From a virus, in the IMG/VR virus record IMGVR_UViG_3300020185_003175, positions 1-27,780 of that record: a stretch of 27,780 nt of DNA; one strand, written 5' to 3'. This document shows positions 3,971-18,696 of this stretch, one piece after another. Each line of letters starts with the position of its first letter. Positions within the stretch are counted from its first letter, which is position 1. The notes under the pieces are model-generated. The model was not told where the DNA came from. It did not search any database and was given only the letters and a program-made list of their open reading frames with translations. Position numbers and translations under genes: made by a program.

Positions 3971-5828
3971 CGTCTAAGTCCTGCGTAAGTAATAATTCTG
4001 TATATTTCAAGAACCGTTGTGCTGATAGCATCGATAATTTCTTAGTATGCTCTGTGTTAGACTGATCATATTCCAAATAATCAAATTTTATGTCTGAATT
4101 AATAGTGGGCCAATGTAATCCTTGTGCTACTAGCTCTGCAACACCGACTGTACTTAAAACTTTCATTGACATCTGGTGGGCTCTTTTTGTTTTGTAGGGT
4201 TTGAACTGTTTTCGTCTAAAATAATTTTCTAACATCTTTTCGCACATTTGATAAGTTACTCCGTGTCGATTAGTCCAATTATGAAACATGTCTTCGGGCA
4301 TTTCGGATGGATCGGCCAATGTGTATCCATGTTCTTTCCAGTTTTTTGAGAACTCACTTAGGCCTCTTTCTTCAATTTCTTTATCATATGCGTCTTCTGG
4401 TCTAATAAGCAATGCTCTTAAAGTCGGGCGATCAATTGGGAAATCTGGCCTACTCATTATATTAAACATTTCTTGAATACTTTCTTTTGTGTCACTCGGT
4501 AAGCCTAATATAAACCCTGAACCAATTAAAACATTATCCCAACCATGATTATCTTTTAAGTCACGCAGGAAATCCAATTGTATAAGCGGGTTTAACCCTT
4601 TACCAACGTCTTTTGCACTTTCTGGATTAGTAGTTTCTATACCGAACTCCACTCTCTTTAGTCCCATTTCCAGTAACAGTTGGTGTTGTGGTACGTCTTT
4701 ATTTCTATGCACATACAATAAATCCAATCTTAAATAACAAGAAAATGTAATTTTAAAAGGTAAGCTCGTAATAATTTTATGTAAGTTTATTATTTTATCA
4801 GGATCGTCATTAAATGTATCTTCCACAAACCAATAATCTGTTACGCCATGTTTTTCGTAATTATGTATAAACTCTGATGCAATACTTTCATTAGATTTAA
4901 AATATGTACCTTTTTCTTTGCCTACTAATTCTAAACTGCAAAAAGAACACTTAAATATACAACCCCTTGCTGTCTCTAGTGCTATTACTTCACCAGGAAA
5001 CAAAATATCCGACTTAGCATATCGCATAGTGCTGTGTTGCATTTCTATTTTGCTAAGTAAATCTAACTTATAAGGATGAGTAGTATGGATTGGCATGTTG
5101 TCTGCTGTACCAGATTTAATCTCATCTAACATATCAGGCATGGTCACATCTCCCCAACCCACATTAATGTAATCAACATTACGAAGCTCAACATCTTCCC
5201 TAGCTCTTGTTCCGCCCTTTACAAATTTTACATTAGGATTAATTCTACGCACATATTCAACGAATGCATCGTCAATTTCCTTACCGTGTGTTAGGAAACC
5301 GGAGTATGGAATAAAAGGATCATCAAACACTTCACCTTCATCTTGTATTCCTTCTAAAGGCAATACAGGCATTTCTTTTGTTACCATGTTTAGCATCCAT
5401 GGGTAACGCATGTAAAACGAGACAGATATACCAATTGCTAGTGTGTTCTCACCAACATACTTGTCTACAATGCGTTTTAATGTTTCTAAGTCGTACAAAC
5501 TTTGATAGTCTACAACTTGTACCGAGTATCCACGTAATCTACACTCATGTGCAACTTTATATGCTCCTAGTGTTCTAAGATGTAGTGAGTTAGTACTGCC
5601 TCTTGAATGATGTATTACACCAGGAGAAAAATATGGGTTTTCTTTTTCAATCAGTAGTTCCTGTGATACCTCCGGGTCTTTAAGATAACCCGGCGCCAGT
5701 GGGATACTATGCGTCATCATAGTATAATTATGTGCGTTATACAGTCCATATGGATCTGTGAGTATAATAAAATCTACTGGAGTGTGTTTTGTAACTTCGA
5801 AATCTTTAAAAGGATTTATTTTTTGCAT
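3960..5828 (-). CDS. radical SAM protein with B12-binding-like N-terminal domain (paralogue 1)
   Basis: This 622-aa protein has cluster motif CIFKCSFC at Cys290, Cys294 and Cys297, preceded by LETARG and followed by FGIETTNPESAKDVGKG and GFILGLPSDTKESIQE. It is a full-length paralogue of the next gene (shared blocks include HECRLRGY, VVDYQS, RAREDV, INVGWGDVTMPDMLDEIK and the C-terminal KYTELLLTQD). Differences concentrate in residues 35-75 and in the C-terminal third, so the copies probably act on different substrates or at successive steps. The ATG has only a weak Shine-Dalgarno (AGG, too close) and a GATAAATA motif ends 5 nt before it. The motif overlaps the stop codon of the reductase gene, so late transcription can begin here independently of that gene. 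Confidence 0.85.
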   Translation of the reverse strand: MQKINPFKDFEVTKHTPVDFIILTDPYGLYNAHNYTMMTHSIPLAPGYLKDPEVSQELLIEKENPYFSPGVIHHSRGSTNSLHLRTLGAYKVAHECRLRGYSVQVVDYQSLYDLETLKRIVDKYVGENTLAIGISVSFYMRYPWMLNMVTKEMPVLPLEGIQDEGEVFDDPFIPYSGFLTHGKEIDDAFVEYVRRINPNVKFVKGGTRAREDVELRNVDYINVGWGDVTMPDMLDEIKSGTADNMPIHTTHPYKLDLLSKIEMQHSTMRYAKSDILFPGEVIALETARGCIFKCSFCSLELVGKEKGTYFKSNESIASEFIHNYEKHGVTDYWFVEDTFNDDPDKIINLHKIITSLPFKITFSCYLRLDLLYVHRNKDVPQHQLLLEMGLKRVEFGIETTNPESAKDVGKGLNPLIQLDFLRDLKDNHGWDNVLIGSGFILGLPSDTKESIQEMFNIMSRPDFPIDRPTLRALLIRPEDAYDKEIEERGLSEFSKNWKEHGYTLADPSEMPEDMFHNWTNRHGVTYQMCEKMLENYFRRKQFKPYKTKRAHQMSMKVLSTVGVAELVAQGLHWPTINSDIKFDYLEYDQSNTEHTKKLSMLSAQRFLKYTELLLTQDLDDED

Positions 5829-5833
5829 ACCTG

Positions 5834-5841
5834 TATTTATC
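5834..5841 (-). promoter_or_regulatory. T4-type late promoter motif GATAAATA
   Basis: GATAAATA on the minus strand, overlapping the TAG stop of the reductase gene and 5 nt (CAGGT) before the ATG at 5828. It would allow late expression of the radical-SAM pair and FabZ without the upstream genes, and it predicts a transcript starting at the start codon. Confidence 0.55.
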
Positions 5842-6584
5842 TAGTCTACAAAGGCTCGTTCTAAGACAAAATCATTTGGCTCTCCTAAGTTTCCCTCTAT
5901 AAATCCTTTATCTTCAAAATAATCTCTGCATTCGTAATTCATTTCAGGACCGCCACATACCATAACTCTATCAGTTGCTTTGTTGAATCCGCCATTAGTA
6001 AACTCTTCTATGTGTTCCCAGAATCTACCTTTACGGACATAATCTTCTTGAGTACAAGTATCATAATAGGTTAATGAAAACTCAGGTGTATCCTTTAATG
6101 TTTCAACTGCTAATTGTATTTCTGTTTGATAAGTGTGTTCATCGTGTGTCCGTGTAGTGTGTACCAGTATCACATTATTAAATTTACTGTATGTATCTGG
6201 GTCTCTAATAATACTCATGAACGGTGCAAGACCTGTGCCTGTGGACAGCAAATATAAATTATCTGCTTCAGTTAAATTATCAATCGTTAACGTGCCCGTA
6301 GACTTAGGCATGACTAATACATCGTCTCCAACTTTTAAATGCTGTAGACGACTTGTTAGAGGTCCGTCTGGTACCTTGATACTGAGGAACTCTAGTTCAT
6401 CTTCATAGTTTGCACTTGCAATACTGTATGCTCTAAGTAATGGTCTGCCGCCTTCTTCTTCTGAAGGCAACCCAATCATAGCGAACTCTCCGTTTATAAA
6501 ACGAAAACTTCTATTGCGGGTGGTTTTAAAACTGAATGTCTTGTCTGTCCAATGGTGGACCCAAGTAACTTTTTCTGTATGCAT
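5841..6584 (-). CDS. ferredoxin/flavodoxin-NADP(+) reductase
   Basis: A 247-aa FAD enzyme of the bacterial Fpr type, which moves electrons between NADPH and ferredoxin or flavodoxin. RAYSIAS at residues 51-57 is the FAD-binding RxYS motif, GTGLAPFMS at 116-124 binds the nicotinamide nucleotide, and VMVCGGPEM is the C-terminal pyrophosphate-binding segment. The terminal LERAFVD resembles the end of alphaproteobacterial Fpr proteins as I remember them, hinting at host lineage. The Shine-Dalgarno AAGGAAG is strong and lies directly after the tRNA-Ala, so the gene is probably on the tRNA transcript from the promoter at 7184-7212. Its position before two radical-SAM enzymes suggests that it feeds their clusters with electrons (inference). 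No ferredoxin or flavodoxin gene is visible, so a host carrier would be needed. Confidence 0.9.
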   Translation of the reverse strand: MHTEKVTWVHHWTDKTFSFKTTRNRSFRFINGEFAMIGLPSEEEGGRPLLRAYSIASANYEDELEFLSIKVPDGPLTSRLQHLKVGDDVLVMPKSTGTLTIDNLTEADNLYLLSTGTGLAPFMSIIRDPDTYSKFNNVILVHTTRTHDEHTYQTEIQLAVETLKDTPEFSLTYYDTCTQEDYVRKGRFWEHIEEFTNGGFNKATDRVMVCGGPEMNYECRDYFEDKGFIEGNLGEPNDFVLERAFVD

Positions 6585-7226: not shown

Positions 7227-7234
7227 GATAAATA
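7227..7234 (+). promoter_or_regulatory. T4-type late promoter motif GATAAATA for gp14-gp15
   Basis: GATAAATA on the plus strand, 7 nt (CTACATT) before the gp14 ATG, with no Shine-Dalgarno between them. It lies 15 nt from the -35 box of the divergent tRNA promoter, so early and late transcription start back to back here. Confidence 0.75.
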
Positions 7235-8274: not shown

Positions 8275-9672
8275 ATGGATTATTTCTATGACGCACAGTT
8301 AAGAAGATACTTACTACAGTTCATGAGAATATTCAGTGGCTTTCAGGTTGCAGAAGGTGTACGCAACGGAACCACAAATTACAATAAAGTACCTGTTAGA
8401 TATGCAGACATGCAACGTATGGTTGCACACATACTAACAAAAGGTTCAGAGAATATGGTTAACAGCACACCGTTTTTGTCTTGTAACGTTACAAGTTTAC
8501 TTGTTGCTAGAGATAGAACACAAGACCCAATGCTTGTTAGCAAAGTACAAGTTGCTGAAAGACAATTCGACACCGGTAGTGCAACATATGGTTCAGAACA
8601 ATTTCCAGGCAACTTGTATTCAACAGACAGATATATGCCTGTGCCTTACAACTTAACAATGAACGTTGATGTATGGAGTGGTAACACAGATCAAAAACTA
8701 CAATTACTAGAACAAATTTTAATTTTATTTAATCCTAGTATACAACTACAGCAAGGAGATAATCCGTTAGACTGGACAAGTTTATACGAAGTAGAGTTAA
8801 CAGACATACAGTGGAGTAACAGAAGTGTACCTGCAGGCGTTGACGAAACGATTGATGTTGCTACATTGACCTTTATACTTCCCATATGGCTAAGTCCGCC
8901 TGCGAAAGTTAAAAGACAAAAAATTATTAATACTATTATAACAAATATTTATGATACAGGTAGTATCGGTGATTTAGAATACGACGACGACCTATATGAC
9001 TTCTTTAGATCATTGGAGTCGGACTTTGAATTACATACAATATCGCCCAATAACTACGAAGTTGAACTTGTTGGTGCCGAGGCAAAGTTATACAAAGACG
9101 GTGGCAGTGCAGAAGCAAATTGGAACGACTTACTAGAAGTTCTGTCTCCACAAGGCTCAGGTACAGCAAATGCAAATATAAGCATAGACGATATACCGCT
9201 AACAACAGCAAGTACATTACAACTTAACATATCAAATAATGTAGACAACGAAACTACATTAATAACAGGCTTAGTATCTAGAAATAGTTTAGACTCGTCT
9301 AAACTAGTATTCAATCTAGACGTAGATACTTTACCTTCAACAACACTAACAGACGTAACAAGAATTGTTGATGCTTCTAAAAACTATCCAGGTGACGGTA
9401 CACTAGATGCTGTGGCTACTGGGCAACGTTATTTGCTCACATCTGAAATACAGGGAAATCAATGGGGCATTACGGCAAACACAAACGACATTATCGAATA
9501 TAACGGCACAGGATGGGTAATATCATTTAATGCTTCTACATCACTTAATCAAGAAAGTATTCAATATGTTAAAAACTTATACACAAACAAACAATACAAA
9601 TGGGAAAACGTCCAATGGACAAGCACATACGAAGGGAAGTACAACCCAGGGTTCTGGCGTCTAAACGTTTAG
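8275..9672 (+). CDS. 15: T4-like gp15 tail sheath stabiliser and completion protein
   Basis: The 465-aa protein starts DYFYDAQLRRYLLQFMRIFS, which aligns with the T4 gp15 N-terminus (YFYNSSFRRYATLMGDLFS). It continues with a VPVRYADMQRMVAHIL block matching the T4 VPITYASKEHFMMKL block, and LTFILPIWLSPPAKVKR near residue 200 matches the gp15 WSLTFEVNGWMYPP region. gp15 caps the tail tube and sheath and joins the tail to the neck. T4 gp15 is 272 aa; here about 190 extra C-terminal residues follow the core, including TNDIIEYNGTGWVISF, an adhesin-like or decoration-like module. The extra region may add a domain that projects from the neck (inference). Confidence 0.85.
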   Translation: MDYFYDAQLRRYLLQFMRIFSGFQVAEGVRNGTTNYNKVPVRYADMQRMVAHILTKGSENMVNSTPFLSCNVTSLLVARDRTQDPMLVSKVQVAERQFDTGSATYGSEQFPGNLYSTDRYMPVPYNLTMNVDVWSGNTDQKLQLLEQILILFNPSIQLQQGDNPLDWTSLYEVELTDIQWSNRSVPAGVDETIDVATLTFILPIWLSPPAKVKRQKIINTIITNIYDTGSIGDLEYDDDLYDFFRSLESDFELHTISPNNYEVELVGAEAKLYKDGGSAEANWNDLLEVLSPQGSGTANANISIDDIPLTTASTLQLNISNNVDNETTLITGLVSRNSLDSSKLVFNLDVDTLPSTTLTDVTRIVDASKNYPGDGTLDAVATGQRYLLTSEIQGNQWGITANTNDIIEYNGTGWVISFNASTSLNQESIQYVKNLYTNKQYKWENVQWTSTYEGKYNPGFWRLNV

Positions 9673-9704
9673 ACAGCGAAAGCATACTTACTAAACTTAA
9701 CCCT

Positions 9705-10151
9705 ATGACCAACTTATCAAGACACAACGGAGTAAGTGCCGCCGGTGTTTTGTTTCTATCAAAGTCTACTGGCAGGTGTTTATTCCAATTACGCAATTCA
9801 GATAAGAAAGGAAAACATACTTGGGGGTTTTGGGGTGGCATGATGGATCCAGGTGAGACTACATACGACACCATACAACGTGAACTTAACGAAGAAATAG
9901 GTATTATTCCAGAACTAAAAAAGTTAAATCCCATTGATGTATACCAAAGTAAAGATAAAAACTTTATGTACTATAGTTTTGTGTACTTAGTTGACGATGA
10001 GTTTATTCCAACACTTAACGATGAAAGCGCCGGGTATGCTTGGGTAGACATTGGACAGTGGCCTAAGCCTTTACACTTTGGTGCAAAAATTACACTAGCC
10101 AGAAACAAAGGCATTAATAAACTACATACTATCCTAAACCTCAATTCCTGA
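9705..10151 (+). CDS. Nudix hydrolase
   Basis: The Nudix box GX5EX7REUXEEXGU is complete: G-MMDPG-E-TTYDTIQ-RELNEEIGI, so Mg2+-dependent hydrolysis of a nucleoside diphosphate linked to another group is expected. The substrate cannot be told; nucleotide sanitation or NAD/ADP-ribose turnover are common phage uses. The frame is open back to ATG 9600, inside the 3' end of gp15. I prefer ATG 9705 (148 aa) because the fold starts just after it (GVSAAGVLFL) and the upstream 35 residues are encoded mostly by DNA that codes for gp15. Neither start has a good Shine-Dalgarno, so translation is probably coupled to gp15. Confidence 0.85.
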   Translation: MTNLSRHNGVSAAGVLFLSKSTGRCLFQLRNSDKKGKHTWGFWGGMMDPGETTYDTIQRELNEEIGIIPELKKLNPIDVYQSKDKNFMYYSFVYLVDDEFIPTLNDESAGYAWVDIGQWPKPLHFGAKITLARNKGINKLHTILNLNS

Positions 10152-10162
10152 TAAGTACTAGC

Positions 10163-10789
10163 ATGTCAAAAGATATTATAAATTTTGATTCTATACGTTT
10201 GACTACTGAACTTAATAAGTTTAAACTACACAAAACTATCCCAAACACATTTTTAGACGGAACGTTCTCGATACTAGATTTAAAGGAGAACTACAATGAT
10301 TTTTCTGCTAAACACAAAAAACTAGCAGATAGATTAATGAAAGTGTATGATGTAGAAATCAGAGATAGTGTAGACGGCTTAGAAAAAAGTATGTTAAACG
10401 AGTATAGAGGATTTGTTAAGAACCAACATTGTAGAGAAGAATGGTGGGTGTATCCTGCTGTGATGCAAAAATACAGAGTAAATATAAATCCTGTTAGAGC
10501 TGTGTATTACGAAACTAAAGAGATGATTAAAAAGTTTAACAGTCACAGTGTACATCACGGATGGTTATATGATATGATTACTGAGAACGAATGGCATCAA
10601 CGTGTAATGAAAGCGATACTGTCTGACAGGAAACGTGTAGATAAAATTATAAACTTCTATTTGCCACTGTACGAGTCTGCTGGCTTAGAATCTCCTATAG
10701 AGTTAAAACATTTGCAAACATTACGTTCTGATTTGCTTGACTATGCAAATTTATTTACTACTGTTAGGAATTGGTCTCCGGACGACTAA
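10163..10789 (+). CDS. hypothetical protein, 208 aa
   Basis: I do not recognise this protein. It is predicted to be mostly helical and soluble, without signal peptide or membrane segment. Aromatic and basic clusters (REEWWVYPAVMQKYR, HHGWLYDMITENEWHQR) stand out. It starts 11 nt after the Nudix gene on the gp14-gp15 transcript, so it may be a late structural or assembly protein, but that rests only on position. Its stop codon abuts the stop of the convergent cyclase gene with no intervening bases, and no terminator is visible between them. Confidence 0.75.
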   Translation: MSKDIINFDSIRLTTELNKFKLHKTIPNTFLDGTFSILDLKENYNDFSAKHKKLADRLMKVYDVEIRDSVDGLEKSMLNEYRGFVKNQHCREEWWVYPAVMQKYRVNINPVRAVYYETKEMIKKFNSHSVHHGWLYDMITENEWHQRVMKAILSDRKRVDKIINFYLPLYESAGLESPIELKHLQTLRSDLLDYANLFTTVRNWSPDD

Positions 10790-12847
10790 TTATTTACTTG
10801 TGGCTATAAAAACGCCATCCCAATCTTTAGGAAGTTTTTGTGTTTTTTGAAATTCACAACGTTCAATCCACATATCATAATAACCTTTCATCTTACCCTC
10901 AAAAGCATCATGTAGTTGTTCACATAATTTAATTGCTTTATCGAAGTTTTGTTTACGATATTGCATGTGCATATCTTCATGCATCTGTTTGGCTTTTGCA
11001 TACTTGCCTACTTTAACATCAAGTACAGTGTATATTTCAATGCCCACAGTCTTTCCTTTTACTGCTAGGTCATCTACTTTTAGATAAAAGAATTTATTCT
11101 TTGTGTGCTTGTAAGTGTCTCCTCCCACTAACAACAAGCACCCATATTCCTTACACTTACTTTCTATTCTTGCCGCAGTACTAACTGCGTCTCCGAGTAT
11201 GTCATATGAATGTCTGGCAGTGGAGCCCATCTCCCCAATATAACCGAGCCCAGTATTAATACCAGCACCCATACCAACTGGCGGTCTGCCTTCTTTAACA
11301 ATTTTATCATTGAATTCCTCTACTGCTCTAAGCATTAGTATTCCTGTTTTTACAGCACTTGCAGGATGATCTGGATCGTCCATTGGTGCATTATGTATGT
11401 GCATACTTGCATCGCCGATATACTTAATAACCATTCCGTCTGCATCAAGTATAGGCTGTGTAATGGCATCCATGTAGCCATTCATTATTTTTGTTAGTCC
11501 CTGAACATCATCACCAAAACTTTCTCCTAGTGGGGTGAAGCCACGCAAATCTGAGAAGCATATACTAACTTCTTTTTTCATACCTTGTTTAATTAGTTCT
11601 GGATTTTCTTGTAACATACGCACTACTGTAGGTGAGGCGTAACCGGCAAATTGTTTTTGTATTTCTGCTCGTAGTTTAAACTGTACCCAGAAGTTATTAA
11701 AACTTGCCTGTGTGAATATTAAGAATGTTGCTATTGCAGGAAATGTTGCATCAAATAAAACTAAGTTTGCTGTATAAGAATGTACACTATAATATACAAT
11801 TCCGCCTATAATAGTAACTGTAGTTACTAGTCCTGCCCATACGGGCAACTTATATATTGCTAGAGCAACTAATACCATGCTCAACAACGCACACAGAAGC
11901 TCGTACACAGCACTTAATTCATTCCTAGTAATGTTACTACCGTCTATAAAGTTTTGTAGCATATGAGCTTGTATAAACTGTGGGTAAACGTTGCCGCCCG
12001 GAGTGGGAACCGGATTAGCAACGCCTTCAGCACTTACTCCCACTATTACGAACTTTCCACCTAAGTCAGGTAGTTCACTCGCTGTTACATACTCGTGTTC
12101 TTCGAAAGTATTATTAAATCTTATGTAAGCAGAACCTCTAGCAGATGTAACAATCGGATCAAATGGAGGCACTGCAAATTCCTTTATACCTATTTCACTA
12201 GTCTTTAAAATATAACTAGGCTTACCTGTGTAAGCTCTTAACATCTCTATAGCAAAACTAGGATATATCTTTCCCTCTACTCCTATTGCTAGTGGGTAAG
12301 TTCTTGTTTGGTTATCTGGTTGAGGCTCTGTTGCTACTACCCCTATACCTGCGGCTACACTTTCTAGTGGCTCAATATTCGTTACGAGATTCGGCCATGT
12401 CAGCAAGTAATTGGTAGCGGGTACTGGGCCTATTGTTGCTGTACCAATGTGCGGACCTGAACTCCTTGTCCCTTTTCCAGATGGGGTCTGGGACAAAATT
12501 ATGCCGTTGTCCGACATCCAACTTTGTAAAACTGCGTCCCCGCCAAATCGGTCTTGCTCTGGAAACATGATCGTTAAACCAATCATTCCAGCGTTTTTGT
12601 TCCTCAGATCCGATATCAGTTGTGCTATGTTCTGTCTTGGCCATGCCCATTGTCCCCATGTGTCTAAACTTTTTTCGCCAATGTTTATTACTACAACTTC
12701 ATTACTGTGTTTCTTTTCGTCTAGTTGTTGTAATGCATCGAATGTTTGGCTACGCAAACTTTGTAATGGTGTAGGATCGGCAACTCGTAGTGTTGTCAGT
12801 AGTAATATAGATATTGCTACGGCCCAGCCGCTTAGTAACCATTTCAT
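10790..12847 (-). CDS. membrane CHASE2-domain class III adenylate cyclase
   Basis: The ATG start at 12847 gives 685 aa; a TTG 15 nt upstream is in frame but lies in the promoter motif. Order of parts: one membrane helix (residues 5-22), an extracytoplasmic CHASE2 sensor (about 25-305, with VVVINIGEKSL and WPRQNIAQLI typical of CHASE2), three membrane helices (about 312-382), and a cytoplasmic class III cyclase (about 425-600). The metal-binding aspartates are in FSDLRGFT (D433) and YIGDAS (D479). Lys475 in IKYIGDA and Asp549 in YDILGD are the pair that selects adenine, so ATP to cAMP is expected. The usual transition-state Asn in GDxVNxAAR is Ser here (GDAVSTAAR, S556) while the Arg (R560) is kept, so activity may be altered. 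Transcription is by its own late promoter at 12853. Confidence 0.9.
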   Translation of the reverse strand: MKWLLSGWAVAISILLLTTLRVADPTPLQSLRSQTFDALQQLDEKKHSNEVVVINIGEKSLDTWGQWAWPRQNIAQLISDLRNKNAGMIGLTIMFPEQDRFGGDAVLQSWMSDNGIILSQTPSGKGTRSSGPHIGTATIGPVPATNYLLTWPNLVTNIEPLESVAAGIGVVATEPQPDNQTRTYPLAIGVEGKIYPSFAIEMLRAYTGKPSYILKTSEIGIKEFAVPPFDPIVTSARGSAYIRFNNTFEEHEYVTASELPDLGGKFVIVGVSAEGVANPVPTPGGNVYPQFIQAHMLQNFIDGSNITRNELSAVYELLCALLSMVLVALAIYKLPVWAGLVTTVTIIGGIVYYSVHSYTANLVLFDATFPAIATFLIFTQASFNNFWVQFKLRAEIQKQFAGYASPTVVRMLQENPELIKQGMKKEVSICFSDLRGFTPLGESFGDDVQGLTKIMNGYMDAITQPILDADGMVIKYIGDASMHIHNAPMDDPDHPASAVKTGILMLRAVEEFNDKIVKEGRPPVGMGAGINTGLGYIGEMGSTARHSYDILGDAVSTAARIESKCKEYGCLLLVGGDTYKHTKNKFFYLKVDDLAVKGKTVGIEIYTVLDVKVGKYAKAKQMHEDMHMQYRKQNFDKAIKLCEQLHDAFEGKMKGYYDMWIERCEFQKTQKLPKDWDGVFIATSK

Positions 12848-12852
12848 TAATA

Positions 12853-12860
12853 TATTTATC
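12853..12860 (-). promoter_or_regulatory. T4-type late promoter motif GATAAATA for the cyclase
   Basis: GATAAATA on the minus strand, then TATTA, then ATG 12847, again exactly 5 nt and again with no Shine-Dalgarno. It directly follows the T-run of the upstream terminator, so the cyclase is an independent late transcription unit. Confidence 0.75.
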
Positions 12861-12888
12861 AAAAAAAAAGCACACCGTAGTGTGCTTT
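12861..12888 (-). terminator. rho-independent terminator of the curli-like operon
   Basis: On the minus strand GCACAC-TACG-GTGTGC forms a 6-bp stem closed by a UACG tetraloop (UNCG type), extended by AAA/TTT and followed by nine T. It lies 3 nt after the stop of the frameshift reading frame (12891) and ends the operon begun at 18696. Confidence 0.9.
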
Positions 12889-12890
12889 CT

Positions 12891-13285
12891 TTATTCGCAT
12901 TCCTTAGGGTTTTTTGAACAGTACTTCATGATACTTTTAACTAAAAATTTCATGTCTTGTTCTGAAATTTCTTCATCTGCCTTCCTAGACGATGAAGATG
13001 TTACTTTCCCTCAGGTTTTTCTTCTTTTTGCAATTCGTCGGTTTGTTTATCAATTTCTGTAGAAACAGTATCAATTACGCCTCCAGCCGCCGTAGCCGCT
13101 GTTGCTGTAATACTAGATACATCTGTTAAAACTGCTTGACTTACTGTCGAAACAGCATTAACGGATCCATCTACTACGCCTGTTGTAAACTCTTTACCGC
13201 CTTCAATAACTGCGCCAACTGATGCACATGAAGGTAAGAAAAGAACAAAACCGAGGAATGCTGTTATAGATAAAAATCTAGTCAT
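12891..13285 (-). CDS. small lipoprotein; zero-frame 94 aa (stop at 13001) or 131 aa by candidate -1 frameshift
   Basis: The zero-frame product (13285-13001, 94 aa) has a lipoprotein signal peptide ending LPSC, Cys20 being the lipid-bearing residue. The mature part is rich in Ala, Val, Ser and Thr (VGAVIEGGKEFTTGVVDGSV), resembling small outer-membrane lipoproteins, and has a charged tail. A strong Shine-Dalgarno AGGAGA lies 5 nt upstream. The zero frame ends GAG GGA AAG TAA. GGGAAAG is a classical -1 slippery heptamer; slipping there enters a frame of 37 more residues (VTSSSSRK through SKNPKECE) ending at TAA 12891. A perfect 8-bp hairpin follows 5 nt after the heptamer. The extension is acidic then basic with two Cys. 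Function is unknown; a spanin-like or curli-accessory lipoprotein is possible. Confidence 0.75.
12970..13010 (-). promoter_or_regulatory. candidate -1 programmed ribosomal frameshift signal
   Basis: Minus strand: slippery GGGAAAG (13010-13004) in zero frame G GGA AAG, directly followed by the TAA stop (13003-13001). After a 5-nt spacer (TAACA) comes the stem TCTTCATC (12998-12991), a 13-nt loop and GATGAAGA (12977-12970). The heptamer is the one I remember from the lambda G-GT frameshift. All three standard parts are present with usual spacing. Confidence 0.65.
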
Positions 13286-13330
13286 AACATTCTCCTGTTT
13301 AATGTAAAGTGAATATCTCTTTACAGTGTT

Positions 13331-13338
13331 TATTTATG
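13331..13338 (-). promoter_or_regulatory. T4-type late promoter motif CATAAATA for the lipoprotein
   Basis: CATAAATA on the minus strand, 45 nt before the lipoprotein ATG at 13285. Here the leader is long enough to hold the AGGAGA Shine-Dalgarno, in contrast to the genes whose promoter touches the ATG. It would give extra late expression of the last gene of the operon. Confidence 0.5.
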
Positions 13339-13372
13339 CAAAATCATCGGCGTAGTTCAATGATTTATGTTC

Positions 13373-13489
13373 TTAGATTAGAAGTAATCCTATTGCAAAA
13401 CCTATGTTTAAGCCTATAGAACAAACTAATATAAAATCCTTATTAAATGAGTAAGGTACTAGTTCTACTATTTCTCTATTGTGTGACAT
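13373..13489 (-). CDS. 38-aa membrane peptide
   Basis: A short reading frame starting at ATG 13489 with AGGAA 6 nt upstream, the Shine-Dalgarno overlapping the stop codon of the curlin-like gene (13497). The product starts MSHNREIVELVPYSFNKDF and ends in one hydrophobic helix (ILVCSIGLNIGFAIGLLLI). A single-pass inner-membrane peptide is likely. It may be a lysis-related or regulatory peptide. Support comes from the ribosome site and from filling the gap in a tightly packed operon. Confidence 0.6.
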   Translation of the reverse strand: MSHNREIVELVPYSFNKDFILVCSIGLNIGFAIGLLLI

Positions 13490-13496
13490 ATTATTC

Positions 13497-14561
13497 CTAG
13501 TTGCTTCCGTTCACTGTTATTGAACACCCTGCTGTGTTATAGCACACACCAGTGATACTGTAACTGCCTGCTGATGATGTCATATTTTGTTGTAAGTTAA
13601 GTGTGTAAGCACCAGTACCATATGTTAAATCAATCGCCGCTGTTGCGGCATTACCGCCTCGTTGAGTAACATCAACACTATGTCCGTCACCATCTAAAAC
13701 GACATCTGCCCATTTAACACCACCGTTACCTCGTTGATATAAATCCACAGTATTACTATCTCCGGCTATTTCTATAAAGCCATCGTGTCCTGCTTTGCCC
13801 ATTTGTATATGCTCTACACTATTACTGTCACCACTAATAATATTTACTAAATGGTGTCCTGCACCACCACTACTTCTGTTTGTGTCTGTTTGATAACTTG
13901 CTAATGTGTTATTATCTCCAGTAACTGTCCAGTATGCTTCGTGGTCGCCTACTTCATCAGAATCAGTTGTGCCGTCTGAATGTTTGCCTTGCCATATTCT
14001 GAGATCATTATTATCTGAACCTGAACCCATAATAGCAAAAATATAATTGTTATCCTGCCCGGCACCTTGGAAAGCATCGATACTATTATTAGTACCAGCA
14101 TTATTAAGTACTTCGAGGTAAGCATAATGATCATCGCCTGCTTGCCAAAGTTGTATTTCATTATTAGTGTGAAGGTTGGAGCCACCTGCTTCTAACCAAG
14201 CATAATTGTCATCACCCATTATCTCTGCTTTGAGTTGACCATAGTTACCATGGTTATCTAAAAATAATTTGTTGTTATCACCTTCTACATAGCCATCTGT
14301 TATTTGATTACTACCACTAGTCCACAAACCTAAAAGATTATTGTTGCCTCTTTGTTGTAGGCTTACTGTATTTGTAGCACCATTAAGATAGGCGTTACCT
14401 ATTGCATTGTTTAAAGAACCAACTTTATTTCCGTATCCTTCTTGTAATATATCTAGTGTTAGATTATCGCCTGTTTGGTCTATATAGACTTGGTTATCTT
14501 GTGCATATACTTGTTCTGTAAGTATACACATAGTAAGTATTAATAATATTTTTTTATTCAT
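13497..14561 (-). CDS. curlin-like secreted amyloid-repeat protein 2
   Basis: A 354-aa protein with a signal peptide (MNKKILLILTMCILTEQVYA, cleavage after YA). The mature part is rich in Asn, Gly, Asp and Gln and made of imperfect curlin-type repeats in which alternating hydrophobics are followed by DNN, GDNN or GNNN turns, for example IDQTGDNLTL, VSLQQRGNNN, VEGDNNKLFL, SGDSNSVEHIQMGKAG and AGDSNTVDLYQRGNGG. These match the S-x5-Q-x-G-x-x-N-x5-Q pattern of CsgA/CsgB units. Its start overlaps the FecR-domain stop by 8 nt. With CsgG and CsgF upstream it is a probable type VIII secretion substrate. A Cys pair near the C-terminus (VCYNTAGC) could form a disulfide. Longer than E. coli CsgA (151 aa). 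Confidence 0.85.
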   Translation of the reverse strand: MNKKILLILTMCILTEQVYAQDNQVYIDQTGDNLTLDILQEGYGNKVGSLNNAIGNAYLNGATNTVSLQQRGNNNLLGLWTSGSNQITDGYVEGDNNKLFLDNHGNYGQLKAEIMGDDNYAWLEAGGSNLHTNNEIQLWQAGDDHYAYLEVLNNAGTNNSIDAFQGAGQDNNYIFAIMGSGSDNNDLRIWQGKHSDGTTDSDEVGDHEAYWTVTGDNNTLASYQTDTNRSSGGAGHHLVNIISGDSNSVEHIQMGKAGHDGFIEIAGDSNTVDLYQRGNGGVKWADVVLDGDGHSVDVTQRGGNAATAAIDLTYGTGAYTLNLQQNMTSSAGSYSITGVCYNTAGCSITVNGSN

Positions 14562-15729
14562 TTTGTGTTATGCTTATGTATATGCCGTCACAACTGTTTA
14601 GGCATATCAAGTCCTCTCCGTTATCTTCGTCAAATATTTCAACTCTTGCTGTTGATCCTTTTTCTAATTTAATACCAATAGTGTTTGATATTTGTCTTAA
14701 TAAAAATATTTTTCCATCGTATTCTGCAAAACTGTTAAACTGTGTGTTTGGGTCATTACCAAATCTTGTTCCTATCAGTCTGTCAGTGCCATCTCCGGAA
14801 CCGTCCAATTCGTTACCCAACGAATCAATATTATCTTCTAATATGTTCAGCAAGTCTTTTAAAAATTCAACATCTAAAAAGTTTATGTCCAACTCTGTAA
14901 ATTCATAATTGTCTTTTGTGTTGTCATCTAGACTTTCAATCTCTAATGCATCTGCATCAAGTCCATCAAAGTCTAATAATCCTGCATCGCCTTGTAGTTC
15001 TTGTACTTGTTCCTCTTTTGCTTCAGTAATTTGTTCTGGCTCGCTTACAATGAACATATTGTCTATCTGATTTAAATCTAAATTAACCAGTACAACAGGC
15101 GTTGTAGGTATAGTCTCAAATGTACTAACCATTACTGCTTGGTAGGCTTCTGTTAGTACTTGAGTACCTCCGTCATTTGTAACTGTTATACTTCCGCTTG
15201 GCGCACAGCCTTCTTCTAATTTAACTTTGTCTGTGCAATTCTCATCTGGTAATAATATTACCAAACTTCTACCCAGTTCATCTACTGTGGTAGTAAAATC
15301 TGTTCCCCTAATACCAATACTGGCTGTGGGGGTTTGTATTTGTATATTTTCCCTAGGTACTAAACCTAATCCTCCTGTGGCAAATCTTGCTGTACCTGAT
15401 ACAAAATTTAAAGCCATTTTGCTCTTACTAGGATTCGGATCATACACATATTCATTTATAACCATATAAGTGTGTTCGGTCAAACTTACTAATGTGTCGT
15501 CAACAAATTTAATTTTTAATCTGCCGTTTTTTGTTTCTACTTCATCCATACTGGCTATACTTTCATCTAAAACTGCTGGTATGTTTTCTCTGTCTCGTTG
15601 TATCTGTGCTATAGTACCAGACTGTTCAAGCACTCCGCCGATTGACTCAGCGGAGGCTTGCACATTGAATGTTGCTATTAGCAATAATGCTAATAACTTA
15701 GTCTGTCTGTTTAATACTAACTGATGCAT
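14554..15729 (-). CDS. secreted FecR-domain protein
   Basis: From ATG 15729 the product is 391 aa (a GTG two codons upstream, 15735, is in frame). A signal peptide ends about residue 28 (NVQASAES). A FecR domain follows at about residues 50-175, with LKIKFVDDTLVSLTEHTYM, FVSGTARFATGG and the diagnostic IQTPTASIGIRGTDF. The domain is beta-rich and periplasmic in sigma/anti-sigma systems; FecR proteins without a membrane helix, as here, occur next to surface amyloid or adhesin genes. The rest is acidic (many DLD/LDAD/ELDI runs) and ends with a small beta module (GSTARVEIFDEDNGEDLICL). It overlaps the curlin-like gene 1 by 32 nt. A periplasmic accessory or surface-attached partner of the amyloid proteins is inferred. 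Confidence 0.8.
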   Translation of the reverse strand: MHQLVLNRQTKLLALLLIATFNVQASAESIGGVLEQSGTIAQIQRDRENIPAVLDESIASMDEVETKNGRLKIKFVDDTLVSLTEHTYMVINEYVYDPNPSKSKMALNFVSGTARFATGGLGLVPRENIQIQTPTASIGIRGTDFTTTVDELGRSLVILLPDENCTDKVKLEEGCAPSGSITVTNDGGTQVLTEAYQAVMVSTFETIPTTPVVLVNLDLNQIDNMFIVSEPEQITEAKEEQVQELQGDAGLLDFDGLDADALEIESLDDNTKDNYEFTELDINFLDVEFLKDLLNILEDNIDSLGNELDGSGDGTDRLIGTRFGNDPNTQFNSFAEYDGKIFLLRQISNTIGIKLEKGSTARVEIFDEDNGEDLICLNSCDGIYISITQNE

Positions 15730-16501
15730 TTTCACTGTCTATTTCTAAATTTATAACACCATTACATGCCGGTGTGCATGTTGTTGTCATATTTTGTATA
15801 AATTGAAAATCGCCATCGCTACCATCTAATTCTACAGTTAACAAGTGTGCATCATTTCCATTTTGCAATGTTGCAAACTTATTGTCGTCACCTGTAATAT
15901 CAAAGTTCCAAGTATTGTAACTAGAATCAATAATTATTCCTGCCATAGTTTGTGTACCAGTACCGTTATTGGCTGTGCCTGCGGCCCAGACCTTACTGTT
16001 TGTAAAACTAGTCGAAAAATCGTTTCTAGATCCTAATATGGTTAAATCCATATTAGAACTTTCGGCTGTAGCGTTTCCGCCTATATCAATATCAAAAATA
16101 TTATCGTCGCCGGTAATATTCGAAAGGATATCAGTATAGTCACCACTTCCTGTAGCGCCGATATTCATATCCCAGATATTGTTATTACCTTGAAAGTAAA
16201 AATCTAATACACTAGAACCTGATCCATCGAGCACCCATGATCCGAACATTTCGTTTAGGTTACCGTCTTGGATTAGATCAACAATTAAACTACTACCGGT
16301 TAGAGTTAAATCAGTAGACTGACTCGTGTCACCGGACAAACTATTACCATAGCCTGCCTGTAGAATTGTTAACGTTAAGTTGTCTCCAACTTGATCGATC
16401 AATACTTCATTATCCGCAGATGCTAGATCCATTGATAATATCCCTGTTATAGCGAAGACGGTTAATATTGTGTTTTTTAAAGAAAAACTTTTAGTCTTCA
16501 T
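15698..16501 (-). CDS. curlin-like secreted amyloid-repeat protein 1
   Basis: A 267-aa protein with a signal peptide (cleavage about ASA-DNEV, residue 29/30) and GGAG Shine-Dalgarno. The mature N-terminus DNEVLIDQVGDNLTLTILQ is nearly the same as that of the other curlin-like protein (DNQVYIDQTGDNLTLDILQ), showing common descent. Repeats have the hydrophobic strand and DDN/NN turn pattern (IQDGNLNEMFG, FQGNNNIWDMNI, ITGDDNIFDIDI, ITGDDNKFATLQ). A C-terminal Cys pair (CTPAC) is followed by a final strand. One of the two proteins could nucleate and the other form the bulk fibre, as CsgB and CsgA do (inference). CsgG lies 26 nt upstream. Confidence 0.85.
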   Translation of the reverse strand: MKTKSFSLKNTILTVFAITGILSMDLASADNEVLIDQVGDNLTLTILQAGYGNSLSGDTSQSTDLTLTGSSLIVDLIQDGNLNEMFGSWVLDGSGSSVLDFYFQGNNNIWDMNIGATGSGDYTDILSNITGDDNIFDIDIGGNATAESSNMDLTILGSRNDFSTSFTNSKVWAAGTANNGTGTQTMAGIIIDSSYNTWNFDITGDDNKFATLQNGNDAHLLTVELDGSDGDFQFIQNMTTTCTPACNGVINLEIDSENASVSIKQTD

Positions 16502-16527
16502 AACTTACTCCATATATGGTTTATTTT

Positions 16528-17520
16528 TTAAGAGTCTTTTTTGTAAAAAATTTGTTTTACAATTGACTCATCATTCTCAAATTCAGATTTTGCGTCACTC
16601 ATGGGCTCAGCTATTTTATCGGATACTTTTAACCAATAAGCCTGTTCCTGTTCAGCAACTTGTTCATCCCAATTTTCAGGATAAACAATCTTCCAAAATC
16701 CTCGTTCGTCGCCTTGTTCTACTAGAGCTAAAACGGAGGCTTCAATCGCTGACCGAACTCCCCATGTTACACTCTCGTTCTCTGTCAAACCGCTTTCTAT
16801 TTCGAGCAATTTAGTGTCCATGTCAAGGAACTTGAACACATCGCCGGCTTGCCCGACACTTAGAATGGTTTTGTATGTCTGTACGTTTAGTATCACTTCC
16901 CCAGTTAATGTACTAACTGCTCTTAATGATACCACTACACTATCTCTTCGATATTGGTTAGTTGTCCCAATACCCAAGTATCTTGCACCTGAGCCACCTG
17001 TTTCTATATTAGAGTCGTAACCAACGACGCCGCCTTCTAATATCATCCCAGCAAATAATAATGGCTGTACTTGTTGTGCTGGCTGATCTTTATTCGCATA
17101 CGATTCTCTTGTACTACGAATAATTTGCCTTTCTCGCACTAAGTTATCTAAACCGAATCCTCTTTCAACAACACGAAACCAAGTTCCTTTAGGATCTTTA
17201 CCGGCTCCTGCCGCCTTGAGAGCATCGATTAATAAGTCTTTTGCACCTTGGGTAACTGCGGTACTAAAACTAGCCGCCCCATCGGAACTCAATCTTTGTC
17301 CTGTTAAGTCGTCAAACTTATACACTGCCACTACTGGCATTGTTTCTGCTGGAGGAAGATAACGCAACTTTCTATAAGTAGGTAATTCTACTTGTTGCGG
17401 TTCCTCCACACATTCTAAAAAATTTGTATTGCATATTTCATCACCAGGAATGGCAATGCTGGCGCAACCAGAAGTTAGCAATAATGCCGCTAAGGCAAAA
17501 GTCAAACTAAAGTATTTCAT
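16528..17520 (-). CDS. csgG: CsgG, curli-type outer-membrane secretion channel
   Basis: A 330-aa protein that aligns along nearly its whole length with E. coli CsgG (277 aa). The lipobox LTSGC gives lipidated Cys19. VAVYKFDDLTGQ matches the E. coli VSVYNIQDETGQ. SFSTAVTQGA covers the pore constriction, where Phe is kept (F85), the Asn is Ser (S84), and the Tyr is not conserved with one extra residue in the loop, so the pore throat is probably altered. VVGYDSNIETGGSGARYLGI and the following strands match the transmembrane beta-hairpins; VFKFLDMDTKLLEIESG and the RGFWKI C-terminus also match. It forms a nonameric pore in known members. The start codon overlaps the csgF stop (TAATG). The C-terminal 40 residues are extra. 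Confidence 0.95.
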   Translation of the reverse strand: MKYFSLTFALAALLLTSGCASIAIPGDEICNTNFLECVEEPQQVELPTYRKLRYLPPAETMPVVAVYKFDDLTGQRLSSDGAASFSTAVTQGAKDLLIDALKAAGAGKDPKGTWFRVVERGFGLDNLVRERQIIRSTRESYANKDQPAQQVQPLLFAGMILEGGVVGYDSNIETGGSGARYLGIGTTNQYRRDSVVVSLRAVSTLTGEVILNVQTYKTILSVGQAGDVFKFLDMDTKLLEIESGLTENESVTWGVRSAIEASVLALVEQGDERGFWKIVYPENWDEQVAEQEQAYWLKVSDKIAEPMSDAKSEFENDESIVKQIFYKKDS

Positions 17521-18026
17521 TATCCGCCGCCAATGCTTCCGATACCAATCGGTATCTCAATTTCAGTTACAGACCCGTCCGGATCTACAATAGTTAATCT
17601 CATAACTTCTAACCCATCTTCGTTTAATACAATTTGGTATGAAACGTTGTTACCTTCAATAGTAAAATCACCTGAATCTGAACCTGTACATTCTACTACA
17701 GTGGCTGGATCACAGAACATACTGTCTACTAATCCTTTTGATATCTGTGCGTATATTCTGCTTTCTAAATTTCTGATAAATTTGTTTATTGTGCTGTTAG
17801 ACTCTTCACGTTCAGCCGCCTTGAGTGCTGACTCTATGTCATCTCTGATTTTATCTTTACGACTTTTTTCCTGATTTTCAATCGTTAGGTAATGAGCTCC
17901 TGTGCCTATTCCGCTGAAACTAGGAGATTTAAATTTATGTACTAGTTGGTCTGCTTGTGCCGGAACAACAACACATGCCATTAACCATACTACTAATGCA
18001 ATTTTTGTTCCACTATCTATTTTCAT
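17520..18026 (-). CDS. csgF: CsgF-like curli assembly factor
   Basis: A 168-aa protein with a signal peptide ending PAQA (residue 25). The mature N-terminus LVHKFKSPSFSGIGTGAHYL matches the CsgF segment FQFRNPNFGG...NGAFLL, which inserts into the CsgG pore and couples secretion to nucleation. The middle part (RNLESRIYAQISKGLVDSM) matches the FTQAIQSQILGGLL helix, and a C-terminal beta region matches the DRKTGQTSTIQV strands, here ending in IGIGSIGGG. Two Cys in the middle (MFCDPATVVECTG) are not usual for CsgF and may make a disulfide. Coupled to csgG (TAATG) and to the upstream gene (ATGA). Confidence 0.88.
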   Translation of the reverse strand: MKIDSGTKIALVVWLMACVVVPAQADQLVHKFKSPSFSGIGTGAHYLTIENQEKSRKDKIRDDIESALKAAEREESNSTINKFIRNLESRIYAQISKGLVDSMFCDPATVVECTGSDSGDFTIEGNNVSYQIVLNEDGLEVMRLTIVDPDGSVTEIEIPIGIGSIGGG

Positions 18027-18322
18027 TTATTAACTTCCTGTTTTTTTATTTCTTCTAATGCTTCTTTTTCTTCTGCGTCTTCCAATACGGCTTGTCTTGC
18101 CCTGTATTCTAAAACAACATTTACTTTTTGTTGTAATCTAATCATGTCTTGGTCAAGCATTCTAGTTTGATCAATAACTCTGATTAGTGCCATGTGCATT
18201 TGTCCTAATGCTGGCTTAATTTCTGTGCCGATAAATTTCCATACATAAAAAATAAAATATCCTAACCCAACTGTGGCGACTACTGGGTAGCCGTGGTCTG
18301 AAACAAGTTGTGCTATATCCAT
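18023..18322 (-). CDS. small holin-like membrane protein 2
   Basis: A 99-aa protein with one N-terminal membrane helix (YPVVATVGLGYFIFYVWKFI, residues 12-31) followed by a charged helix that can form a coiled coil and a Glu/Lys-rich tail. It resembles the gene before it (G-x-P-[IV]-x-x-x-[VI]-x-[ML]-G-[FY]-F-I-F), so the two are paralogues. Size and layout recall BhlA/UviB-type holin-like proteins, but I cannot confirm membership. Strong Shine-Dalgarno AGGAGAG. The start overlaps the previous stop (TAATG) and the stop overlaps csgF (ATGA). Confidence 0.75.
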   Translation of the reverse strand: MDIAQLVSDHGYPVVATVGLGYFIFYVWKFIGTEIKPALGQMHMALIRVIDQTRMLDQDMIRLQQKVNVVLEYRARQAVLEDAEEKEALEEIKKQEVNK

Positions 18323-18618
18323 TAGTCTCTCCTAACATCTAACTTGCCATCCTCTACAAAGTTTTCTGCTCTCGCAACTCTATCGATATCTGGTCTGAGG
18401 TCTAATGCACTGCTTACAAGCAAATCAATTTTTATCATTTCATTACTCATTGTTCTTGCTCTGTTTTCTAAACTATTACAAAACATCGTGAGTGTTTCGA
18501 TTTGACCGACTATGCCGGCAAGCATCTGTTTGATTATGAGAAATATAAAAAATCCCATGGTGATGGAACCAGCAATGGGTAGGCCTACTTCGCCAATTAA
18601 TTTGAAAATGTCTTCCAT
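18322..18618 (-). CDS. small holin-like membrane protein 1
   Basis: A 98-aa protein, first gene of the curli-like operon. It has one membrane helix (GLPIAGSITMGFFIFLIIKQ, residues 12-31), then an amphipathic helix (QIETLTMFCNSLENRARTM) and a charged C-terminus. It is a paralogue of the next gene. The pair could form a mixed membrane assembly: a holin and antiholin, or an inner-membrane platform serving the CsgG pore. Both are inference from size and position. The leader runs 70 nt back to the late promoter at 18689, with a modest Shine-Dalgarno (AGGTG). Confidence 0.75.
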   Translation of the reverse strand: MEDIFKLIGEVGLPIAGSITMGFFIFLIIKQMLAGIVGQIETLTMFCNSLENRARTMSNEMIKIDLLVSSALDLRPDIDRVARAENFVEDGKLDVRRD

Positions 18619-18688
18619 CTACTACACCTGTTTGTTTTATTGTTTTTATGCAGTGTGTGATGTGTTGTATGTATAATTTATGTAAATG

Positions 18689-18696
18689 TATTTATC
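18689..18696 (-). promoter_or_regulatory. T4-type late promoter motif GATAAATA of the curli-like operon
   Basis: GATAAATA on the minus strand, 70 nt before the first gene (18618). No other promoter is evident between here and 13338, and the eight gene junctions overlap or are very short, so the operon is most likely read as one late transcript. Confidence 0.65.

Follow-up and report, generated by a model that had tools for sequence, protein, structure and literature searches.

The window, by which we mean the whole 27,780-nt stretch of viral DNA analysed (IMG/VR record IMGVR_UViG_3300020185_003175), carries a curli-type gene cassette, all parts of which lie on the minus strand. The genes follow in the order TM1, TM2, CsgF, CsgG, curlin 1, FecR, curlin 2 and CHASE2 cyclase, with a 38-aa ORF and a lipoprotein gene between the last two. 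The first-pass annotation had placed the cassette at 12861–18696. Its gene content holds, but the lower limit does not; the true limit is 10790, since the CHASE2-adenylate cyclase had been missed. The type VIII secretion (curli) identity is upheld by profile matches to CsgG, CsgF and the curlin repeat.

The gene at 16528–17520 encodes the outer-membrane pore homologue CsgG (PF03783, E 1.4e-43), with the lipobox LLLTSGC. It matches the CsgG structures of the PDB (3x2r/6l7a) at E 3e-44, and this comparison shows that the whole pore domain is kept. The gene at 17520–18026 encodes a CsgF homologue, which covers the full PF10614 profile (E 5.4e-13) and has a signal peptide and an FKSPSFSG segment at the N-terminus. 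A sequence search of the PDB with CsgF gave no match. Both genes thus fall in the families to which they had been assigned. Profiles of CsgE and CsgC found nothing credible in the window, in a 340-kb relative, or in the phages Melnitz and HTVC008M, in agreement with the earlier remark that neither is recognisable. The CsgE gene is likewise absent from the published pelagiphage modules (PMC9599517), and its absence therefore alters the subtype of the system, not its kind.

Two curlin-type secreted proteins had been annotated. Curlin 2 (13497–14561) is clear, with a PF07012 match at E 5.8e-10. Curlin 1 (15698–16501) is weak when taken alone (E 0.024 against the curlin repeat profile) and is supported through its orthologues, 21 of 30 of which match Curlin_rpt at E <= 1, the best at 9e-6. 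Both proteins also gather in one iterative profile. In the predicted model of curlin 1 (pLDDT 74), short beta strands recur along the chain; a fold search of the PDB with this model found nothing significant, and the CsgA fibril came up at no better than E 1.8. Curlin 1 is the more conserved subunit, with a dN/dS of about 0.08 in a single pair with its nearest relative at high dS. Curlin 2 is the fastest-evolving gene of the cassette at every distance, with a median identity of 71% where CsgG is 90–100% identical. Such divergence is expected of an exposed fibre and counts for a fibre function.

The gene at 14554–15735 encodes a secreted FecR-domain protein (PF04773, E 3.3e-10; phrog_37870), as had been proposed. 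The gene at 10790–12847 encodes an adenylate/guanylate cyclase with a CHASE2 domain (CHASE2, E 2e-37; Guanylate_cyc, E 2e-15), the catalytic domain of which matches catalytic-domain structures in the PDB at E 2e-22. Alignment favours the ATG at 12847 as its start, the TTG at 12862 being less likely. Class III cyclases have two metal-binding Asp residues and an N-x-x-x-R motif with the catalytic Asn. In the cyclase type of the window both Asp residues are kept, but a Ser stands in place of the catalytic Asn (VSTAAR), which makes the predicted cyclase activity uncertain. Among phage cyclases the CHASE2 sensor stays with its lineage, and the catalytic domains have been swapped between lineages.

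The pairing of FecR with CHASE2 recurs in alphaproteobacteria. Of 30 CHASE2 genes sampled in one bacterial order, only 7 had a FecR gene beside them, though the profile used could overlook divergent FecR proteins. One alphaproteobacterial chromosome (L174) carries CsgF, CsgG, curlin, FecR and the CHASE2 cyclase in a row; it is the only bacterial curli operon in which this pair was found. The CHASE2 cyclase CyaD1 of S. meliloti is encoded near the FecR gene SMc02177, as in the window, though with no curli link; it is the phage cyclases whose catalytic domains move between lineages. Removal of CHASE2 from CyaD1 gives constitutive cAMP, and the FecR gene is dispensable for signal perception (PMC5498481). 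The recurrence in alphaproteobacteria, the L174 row and CyaD1 count for a signalling pair. A rival proposal makes the module an uptake or permeability device, in which nutrients or cofactors would enter the infected cell through an ungated CsgG pore and FecR would be a sensor linked to iron (PMC7029224, PMC9599517). The lack of a CsgE gate would suit such a device. However, FecR here has a CHASE2 cyclase as its partner instead of a sigma factor and a TonB receptor, and two conserved curlins and CsgF would be left unexplained; we regard this explanation as quite improbable.

TM1 (18322–18618; phrog_18771) is a 98-aa protein with a single transmembrane segment and a coiled coil. Its C-terminus carries a conserved D-R-D motif with invariant D94, R96 and D98, and its model is one long helix (pLDDT 77). 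TM2 (18023–18322) is a 99-aa paralogue (profile–profile probability 98.7). The two are apparently the proteins published as 'histidine kinases' or 'HK' (PMC9599517). No HisKA or HATPase kinase domain was matched in Pfam at E <= 1 by any of 32 members. With a length of 98 or 99 aa, no kinase match and one long predicted helix in TM1, a histidine kinase identity is unsupported, and the published label of these small genes looks wrong. The first-pass annotation had called the pair holin-like. Two small single-TM proteins are indeed present, but they match no holin family and, among resolvable loci, are seen only with this cassette, so that a holin identity is unsupported as well. The pair accompanies CsgF and CsgG in every one of the 63 viral loci that could be resolved, and bacterial curli loci are without it.

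Late expression, as had been proposed, is upheld by promoter-like sites before TM1, the lipoprotein gene and the cyclase. The GATAAATA element lies 5' of the cassette at 18689–18696 and again at 12853–12860, 5 nt before the cyclase ATG; the lipoprotein gene has the site ATAAATA at 13331–13337. In the window, 9 of 10 ATAAATA sites are within 110 nt 5' of a gene on the same strand (P 0.0005), among them those at 18689–18695, 13331–13337 and 12853–12859. The enrichment is in position alone, the raw count not being raised, and the sites are read as putative T4-type late promoters. A scan for sigma-70 promoters gave counts no higher than in shuffles. The strong terminator noted earlier corresponds to a terminator-like stem at 12867–12888 followed by nine T, running to about 12860, which closes the unit from TM1 to the lipoprotein gene. 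The lipoprotein itself (13001–13285; 94 aa, FLPSC) is a prediction, and its gene is found in about half of the resolvable loci (15/34). The 38-aa ORF (13373–13489), a predicted membrane peptide, is present as annotated but is a doubtful cassette member. It has few recognisable relatives: it gave seven profile matches, and among window-like loci only L017 and L020 have a comparable ORF in the corresponding position.

Conservation of the cassette was surveyed in 34 distinct CsgG loci that could be resolved. All 34 have TM1, TM2, CsgF, FecR and at least one curlin; 33 have two curlins and 30 the cyclase. Except for curlin 2, the cassette genes show dN/dS values of 0.02–0.22, indicating purifying selection, in one pairwise comparison at high dS with the closest relative. 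The cassette is thus a strictly co-conserved unit, now found in a further, jumbo-phage lineage.

The first-pass annotation had suggested that the full arrangement may be new. It is not: PMC9599517 described the identical order in 2022, the records of the cultured phages HTVC008M and Melnitz annotate it, and CsgF and CsgG in phages had been reported before (PMC7029224). The pelagiphage module of HTVC008M and HTVC023P-type podophages (PMC9599517, PMC7029224) has one or two 'HK' genes followed by CsgF, CsgG, curlin, FecR, curlin and adenylate cyclase, and the window agrees with this order, with small membrane proteins in the 'HK' position. It differs in adding the lipoprotein gene and the terminator before the cyclase. 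CsgG of the window is about 48% identical to that of HTVC008M, and the window phage is by lineage a jumbo myophage. With the curli operons of bacteria (E. coli csgBAC/csgDEFG and alphaproteobacterial csgF-csgG-curlin) the window shares CsgG, CsgF and the curlin repeats; in contrast to them, it is without CsgE and CsgC and has the phage-specific TM1 and TM2.

The order is also shared with Methylophilales phage Melnitz (PMC9004378; MZ577097). The two cyclases agree in catalytic-domain type (84% identity), but the CHASE2 sensor of Melnitz is only 34% and its CsgG 43% identical. For Melnitz a role of CsgG and CsgF in lysis or its timing was proposed (PMC9004378); the two small membrane proteins would then be holins, and curlins and FecR would be passengers. 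The late promoter before the cassette and the small, single-TM, coiled-coil TM1 and TM2 are compatible with this. The Melnitz paper states that csgA and csgB are lacking (PMC9004378), yet two proteins with curlin repeats and a FecR protein are annotated in the record of that phage, which puts the argument for a lysis pore at odds with the annotation. Practically all resolvable loci moreover keep both curlins and FecR, the dN/dS of curlin 1 is about 0.08, and TM1 and TM2 were found with this cassette only and not as general phage lysis genes. A lysis device is therefore improbable, and the conserved curlins likewise disfavour the earlier suggestion of CsgG as a lysis pore.

What can be read from the sequence is a pore with its extracellular partner and two secreted curlins, together with FecR in the periplasm, a membrane-bound cyclase whose CHASE2 sensor is periplasmic, and a pair of paralogous proteins of the inner membrane. 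Of a type VIII module, the pore, CsgF and curlin-repeat subunits are present and CsgE is absent. The cassette is probably a complete, rewired type VIII secretion module that acts late in infection with its own cAMP signalling. The curlins would pass through Sec and then the CsgG–CsgF pore to form fibres at the surface of the infected cell. FecR would act with the CHASE2 cyclase as a transmembrane pair converting the state of the periplasm or of secretion into a cyclic-nucleotide signal. TM1 and TM2 may act on the curlin pathway at the inner membrane, perhaps partly replacing CsgE. The fibre coat probably alters the infected-cell surface, which may serve superinfection block or adhesion. The co-occurrence of all parts, the purifying selection and the intact pore domain support fibre secretion. 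Against it stand the lack of CsgE, the weakness of curlin 1 alone, the Ser in the cyclase, the dispensable FecR of S. meliloti, the absence of clumping in Melnitz cultures and the FecR count of 7/30.

Superinfection block and sibling capture are both already published speculation. In the latter the same fibres would hold progeny or sibling cells together and not protect the infected cell (PMC7029224). However, no clumping was observed in Melnitz cultures (PMC9004378), and late expression would leave little time for aggregation; we consider sibling capture rather unlikely.

The phage curli cassette was previously known but unexplained, and TM1/TM2 and its cAMP-signalling part were poorly described. 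A concrete sensor–cyclase pair can now be named; the literature on a histidine kinase or FecR with phage CHASE2 gave nothing beyond PMC9599517. More tentatively, TM1 and TM2 could be an invention of phages that type VIII secretion here requires, as a substitute gate or control device at the inner membrane. With the FecR/CHASE2 pair, the catalytic domain of which is swapped between phages, they would then make a self-regulating amyloid-secretion module that has spread across several families of marine phages, including jumbo phages.

Sequence comparison places the source phage in a jumbo marine myophage lineage. One relative is a 340-kb contig, and the tail gene of the window is closest to those of jumbo phages. 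A pelagimyophage origin is ruled out by this tail gene, by the finding that no cultured phage matches the window closely in DNA, and by there being only a remote match in HTVC008M and Melnitz. A chimera of bacterial and phage DNA, which the first-pass annotation had raised, is also ruled out, for independent contigs carry this cassette together with one and the same structural gene of phages. A Pelagibacter-labelled MAG, possibly through mis-binning, contains a related CsgG contig together with a contig carrying a 39%-identical tail gene.

The curli-type (type VIII secretion, T8SS) cassette of the window is real and of a kind already described, here in a jumbo-phage lineage and with a corrected annotation. 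All of the genes named in the first-pass annotation are present where it placed them. Pfam profiles assign 16528–17520 to the CsgG family (E 1.4e-43) and 17520–18026 to the CsgF family (E 5.4e-13), two placements whose failure the first-pass annotation had named as refuting it, and detect a FecR domain in 14554–15735 (3.3e-10); the CsgG pore domain aligns with E. coli CsgG in a PDB search. Two curlin-type secreted proteins had been proposed. Curlin 2 (13497–14561) is confirmed at 5.8e-10, and curlin 1 (15698–16501) matches weakly (0.024), with support added by its orthologues, 21 of 30 of which hit the curlin-repeat profile with E ≤ 1 (8.6e-6 for the strongest), and by an iterative profile in which both curlins fall together. 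The predicted structure of curlin 1 is a succession of short beta strands, with no significant match among solved structures. The cassette had been delimited one gene short, since a CHASE2-adenylate cyclase recognized by Pfam lies beyond, at 10790–12847 on the minus strand.

A 2020 paper described CsgF and CsgG with their neighbours in pelagimyophages (PMC7029224), and one of 2022 the full gene order including curlins, FecR and adenylate cyclase (PMC9599517). A T4-like virus tied to marine Bacteroidetes also has a curli gene set (PMC7198788). The records of the cultured phages HTVC008M and Melnitz hold the same eight genes, so the earlier suggestion that the full arrangement may be new does not hold. 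The Melnitz paper states that csgA and csgB are missing (PMC9004378), contrary to which two curlin-repeat proteins are annotated in the Melnitz record. The evolutionary pattern, with the sensor kept, the catalytic domain exchanged and the second curlin evolving fast, was not found in the published accounts consulted.

No cultured phage matches the window closely at the DNA level. Its tail-sheath-completion-like protein is nearest to those of jumbo phages of roughly 280–490 kb (PA5oct-like, Atu_ph07, SCTP-2), and is encoded at 50–85% identity on 17 contigs with related cassettes, contigs of 217 kb and 340 kb among them; its counterpart in HTVC008M and Melnitz is only a distant one. The lineage lies outside the published carriers (Kyanoviridae-type, podovirus).

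The genes are conserved as a unit. In surveys limited to the best 80 matches of each scan, whose loci are related and not independent events, the small membrane proteins TM1 (18322–18618) and TM2 (18023–18322), CsgF, FecR and at least one curlin each occur in 34/34 distinct CsgG loci that have sufficient flanking sequence, two curlins in 33, the cyclase in 30 and the lipoprotein (13001–13285) in 15; a search from TM1 found CsgF and CsgG in all 63 loci that extend 1.5 kb or more downstream. Against the related locus L002, a single relative at high dS, dN/dS is 0.02–0.12 for TM1, TM2, CsgF, CsgG, curlin 1, FecR and the cyclase, 0.22 for the lipoprotein and 0.46 for curlin 2. A comparison of 87 loci puts curlin 2 lowest in conservation at all distances.

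TM1 (98 aa) and TM2 (99 aa) are paralogues (profile-profile probability 98.7), each with a coiled coil and a single transmembrane helix; the TM1 model consists of one long helix. They had been called holin-like, and 0/32 members match a holin family. In PMC9599517 they most likely figure as the "HK" genes, which have the same position in one or two copies, sequence identity being compared through HTVC008M only. No kinase family is matched either (0/32 members). Neither was found at E 1e-3 in the bacterial curli loci L178–L247, and the MAG contigs that carry them (L168–L173, L175–L177, L184) have the phage-type layout; TM1 and TM2 look like a phage-specific component. L170, L171 and other loci in Bacteroidetes-, Rhodobacteraceae- and Pelagibacter-labelled MAGs have the phage-type cassette with TM1/TM2 on contigs binned as bacterial, and are therefore probably phage contigs.

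The cyclase catalytic domain is of at least three types. The window shares 77% identity with the related locus L016 in the CHASE2 part and 41% in the catalytic part, whereas with Melnitz the values are 34% and 84%. From this discordance, and from the presence of types 1 and 3 both in the jumbo clade and in other phages, it follows that lineages have exchanged the catalytic domain and kept their sensor. In type 1, Ser replaces the catalytic Asn, so its activity is not assured.

A bacterial counterpart, L174 (Hyphomonas sp. TMED17, 9471–15494), is a chromosomal alphaproteobacterial operon of CsgF, CsgG, curlin, FecR and CHASE2 cyclase on a 705-kb contig, where metabolic and TonB-receptor genes border it; TM1/TM2 were not found in it. 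It qualifies the published statement that places FecR and cyclase outside bacterial T8SS operons, and plausibly represents a donor-type arrangement, possibly a relative of the donor. In the bacterial order including L174, such FecR genes often adjoin a CHASE2 or cyclase gene (8 of 20 short loci), and a neighbouring FecR gene could be detected for 7 of 30 CHASE2 genes. In S. meliloti, CyaD1 without CHASE2 gives constitutive cAMP, and the FecR gene SMc02177, in the same chromosomal region, is dispensable for plant-signal perception (PMC5498481).

With composition, order, co-conservation, selection and late-promoter positions observed, a path can be proposed. CsgE, as noted before, is not found by profile search, and curlin fibres would be secreted through CsgG-CsgF without it, with FecR-CHASE2 signalling and TM1/TM2 working on the same path; the surface of the infected cell would be altered. 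A lysis role was put forward for Melnitz (PMC9004378), but a CsgG/CsgF lysis pore leaves two conserved curlins unexplained, and an uptake function, also considered, leaves the curlins and CsgF unexplained. Such fibres may block superinfection or capture siblings, although no clumping was observed with cultured Melnitz (PMC9004378).

By count, the window is not rich in ATAAATA, but 9 of the 10 sites closely precede a gene on their own strand (circular-shift P 0.0005), and none of the other motifs made by rearranging its letters is so placed at more than 25% of sites. This placement supports late expression and agrees with the late promoter previously proposed ahead of the cassette genes. Between the lipoprotein gene and the cyclase, a stem-loop with nine T on the minus strand is followed by a GATAAATA site 5 nt ahead of the cyclase ATG, so the cyclase is probably a separate late transcript. 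In jumbo-lineage loci, which are akin so that the counts are not independent, GATAAATA ends exactly 5 nt before ATG at 15/70 sites and exactly 10 nt before at 14/70; the corresponding counts for control motifs are 4 and 0 of 82. Such spacing sites in the window are 429–435, 5834–5840 and 12853–12859 (minus strand) and 7228–7234 (plus strand). If T4 spacing holds, the 5-nt group would yield leaderless late mRNAs.

Elsewhere in the window, 2138–5828 (minus strand) encodes two similar neighbouring proteins (610 and 622 aa) that carry the CxxxCxxC motif characteristic of radical SAM enzymes, next to a ferredoxin-reductase-like protein (5841–6584), all of these domains being named by sequence reading; 2138–3970 and 5841–6584, the two searched, have no PHROG match. 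A CsgG 40% identical to that of the window occurs at 247–948 of INPHARED OR851715.1, a 1,499-bp record titled "Salmonella phage S.Kent 1-2-1", which seems likely to be a fragment or contaminant.
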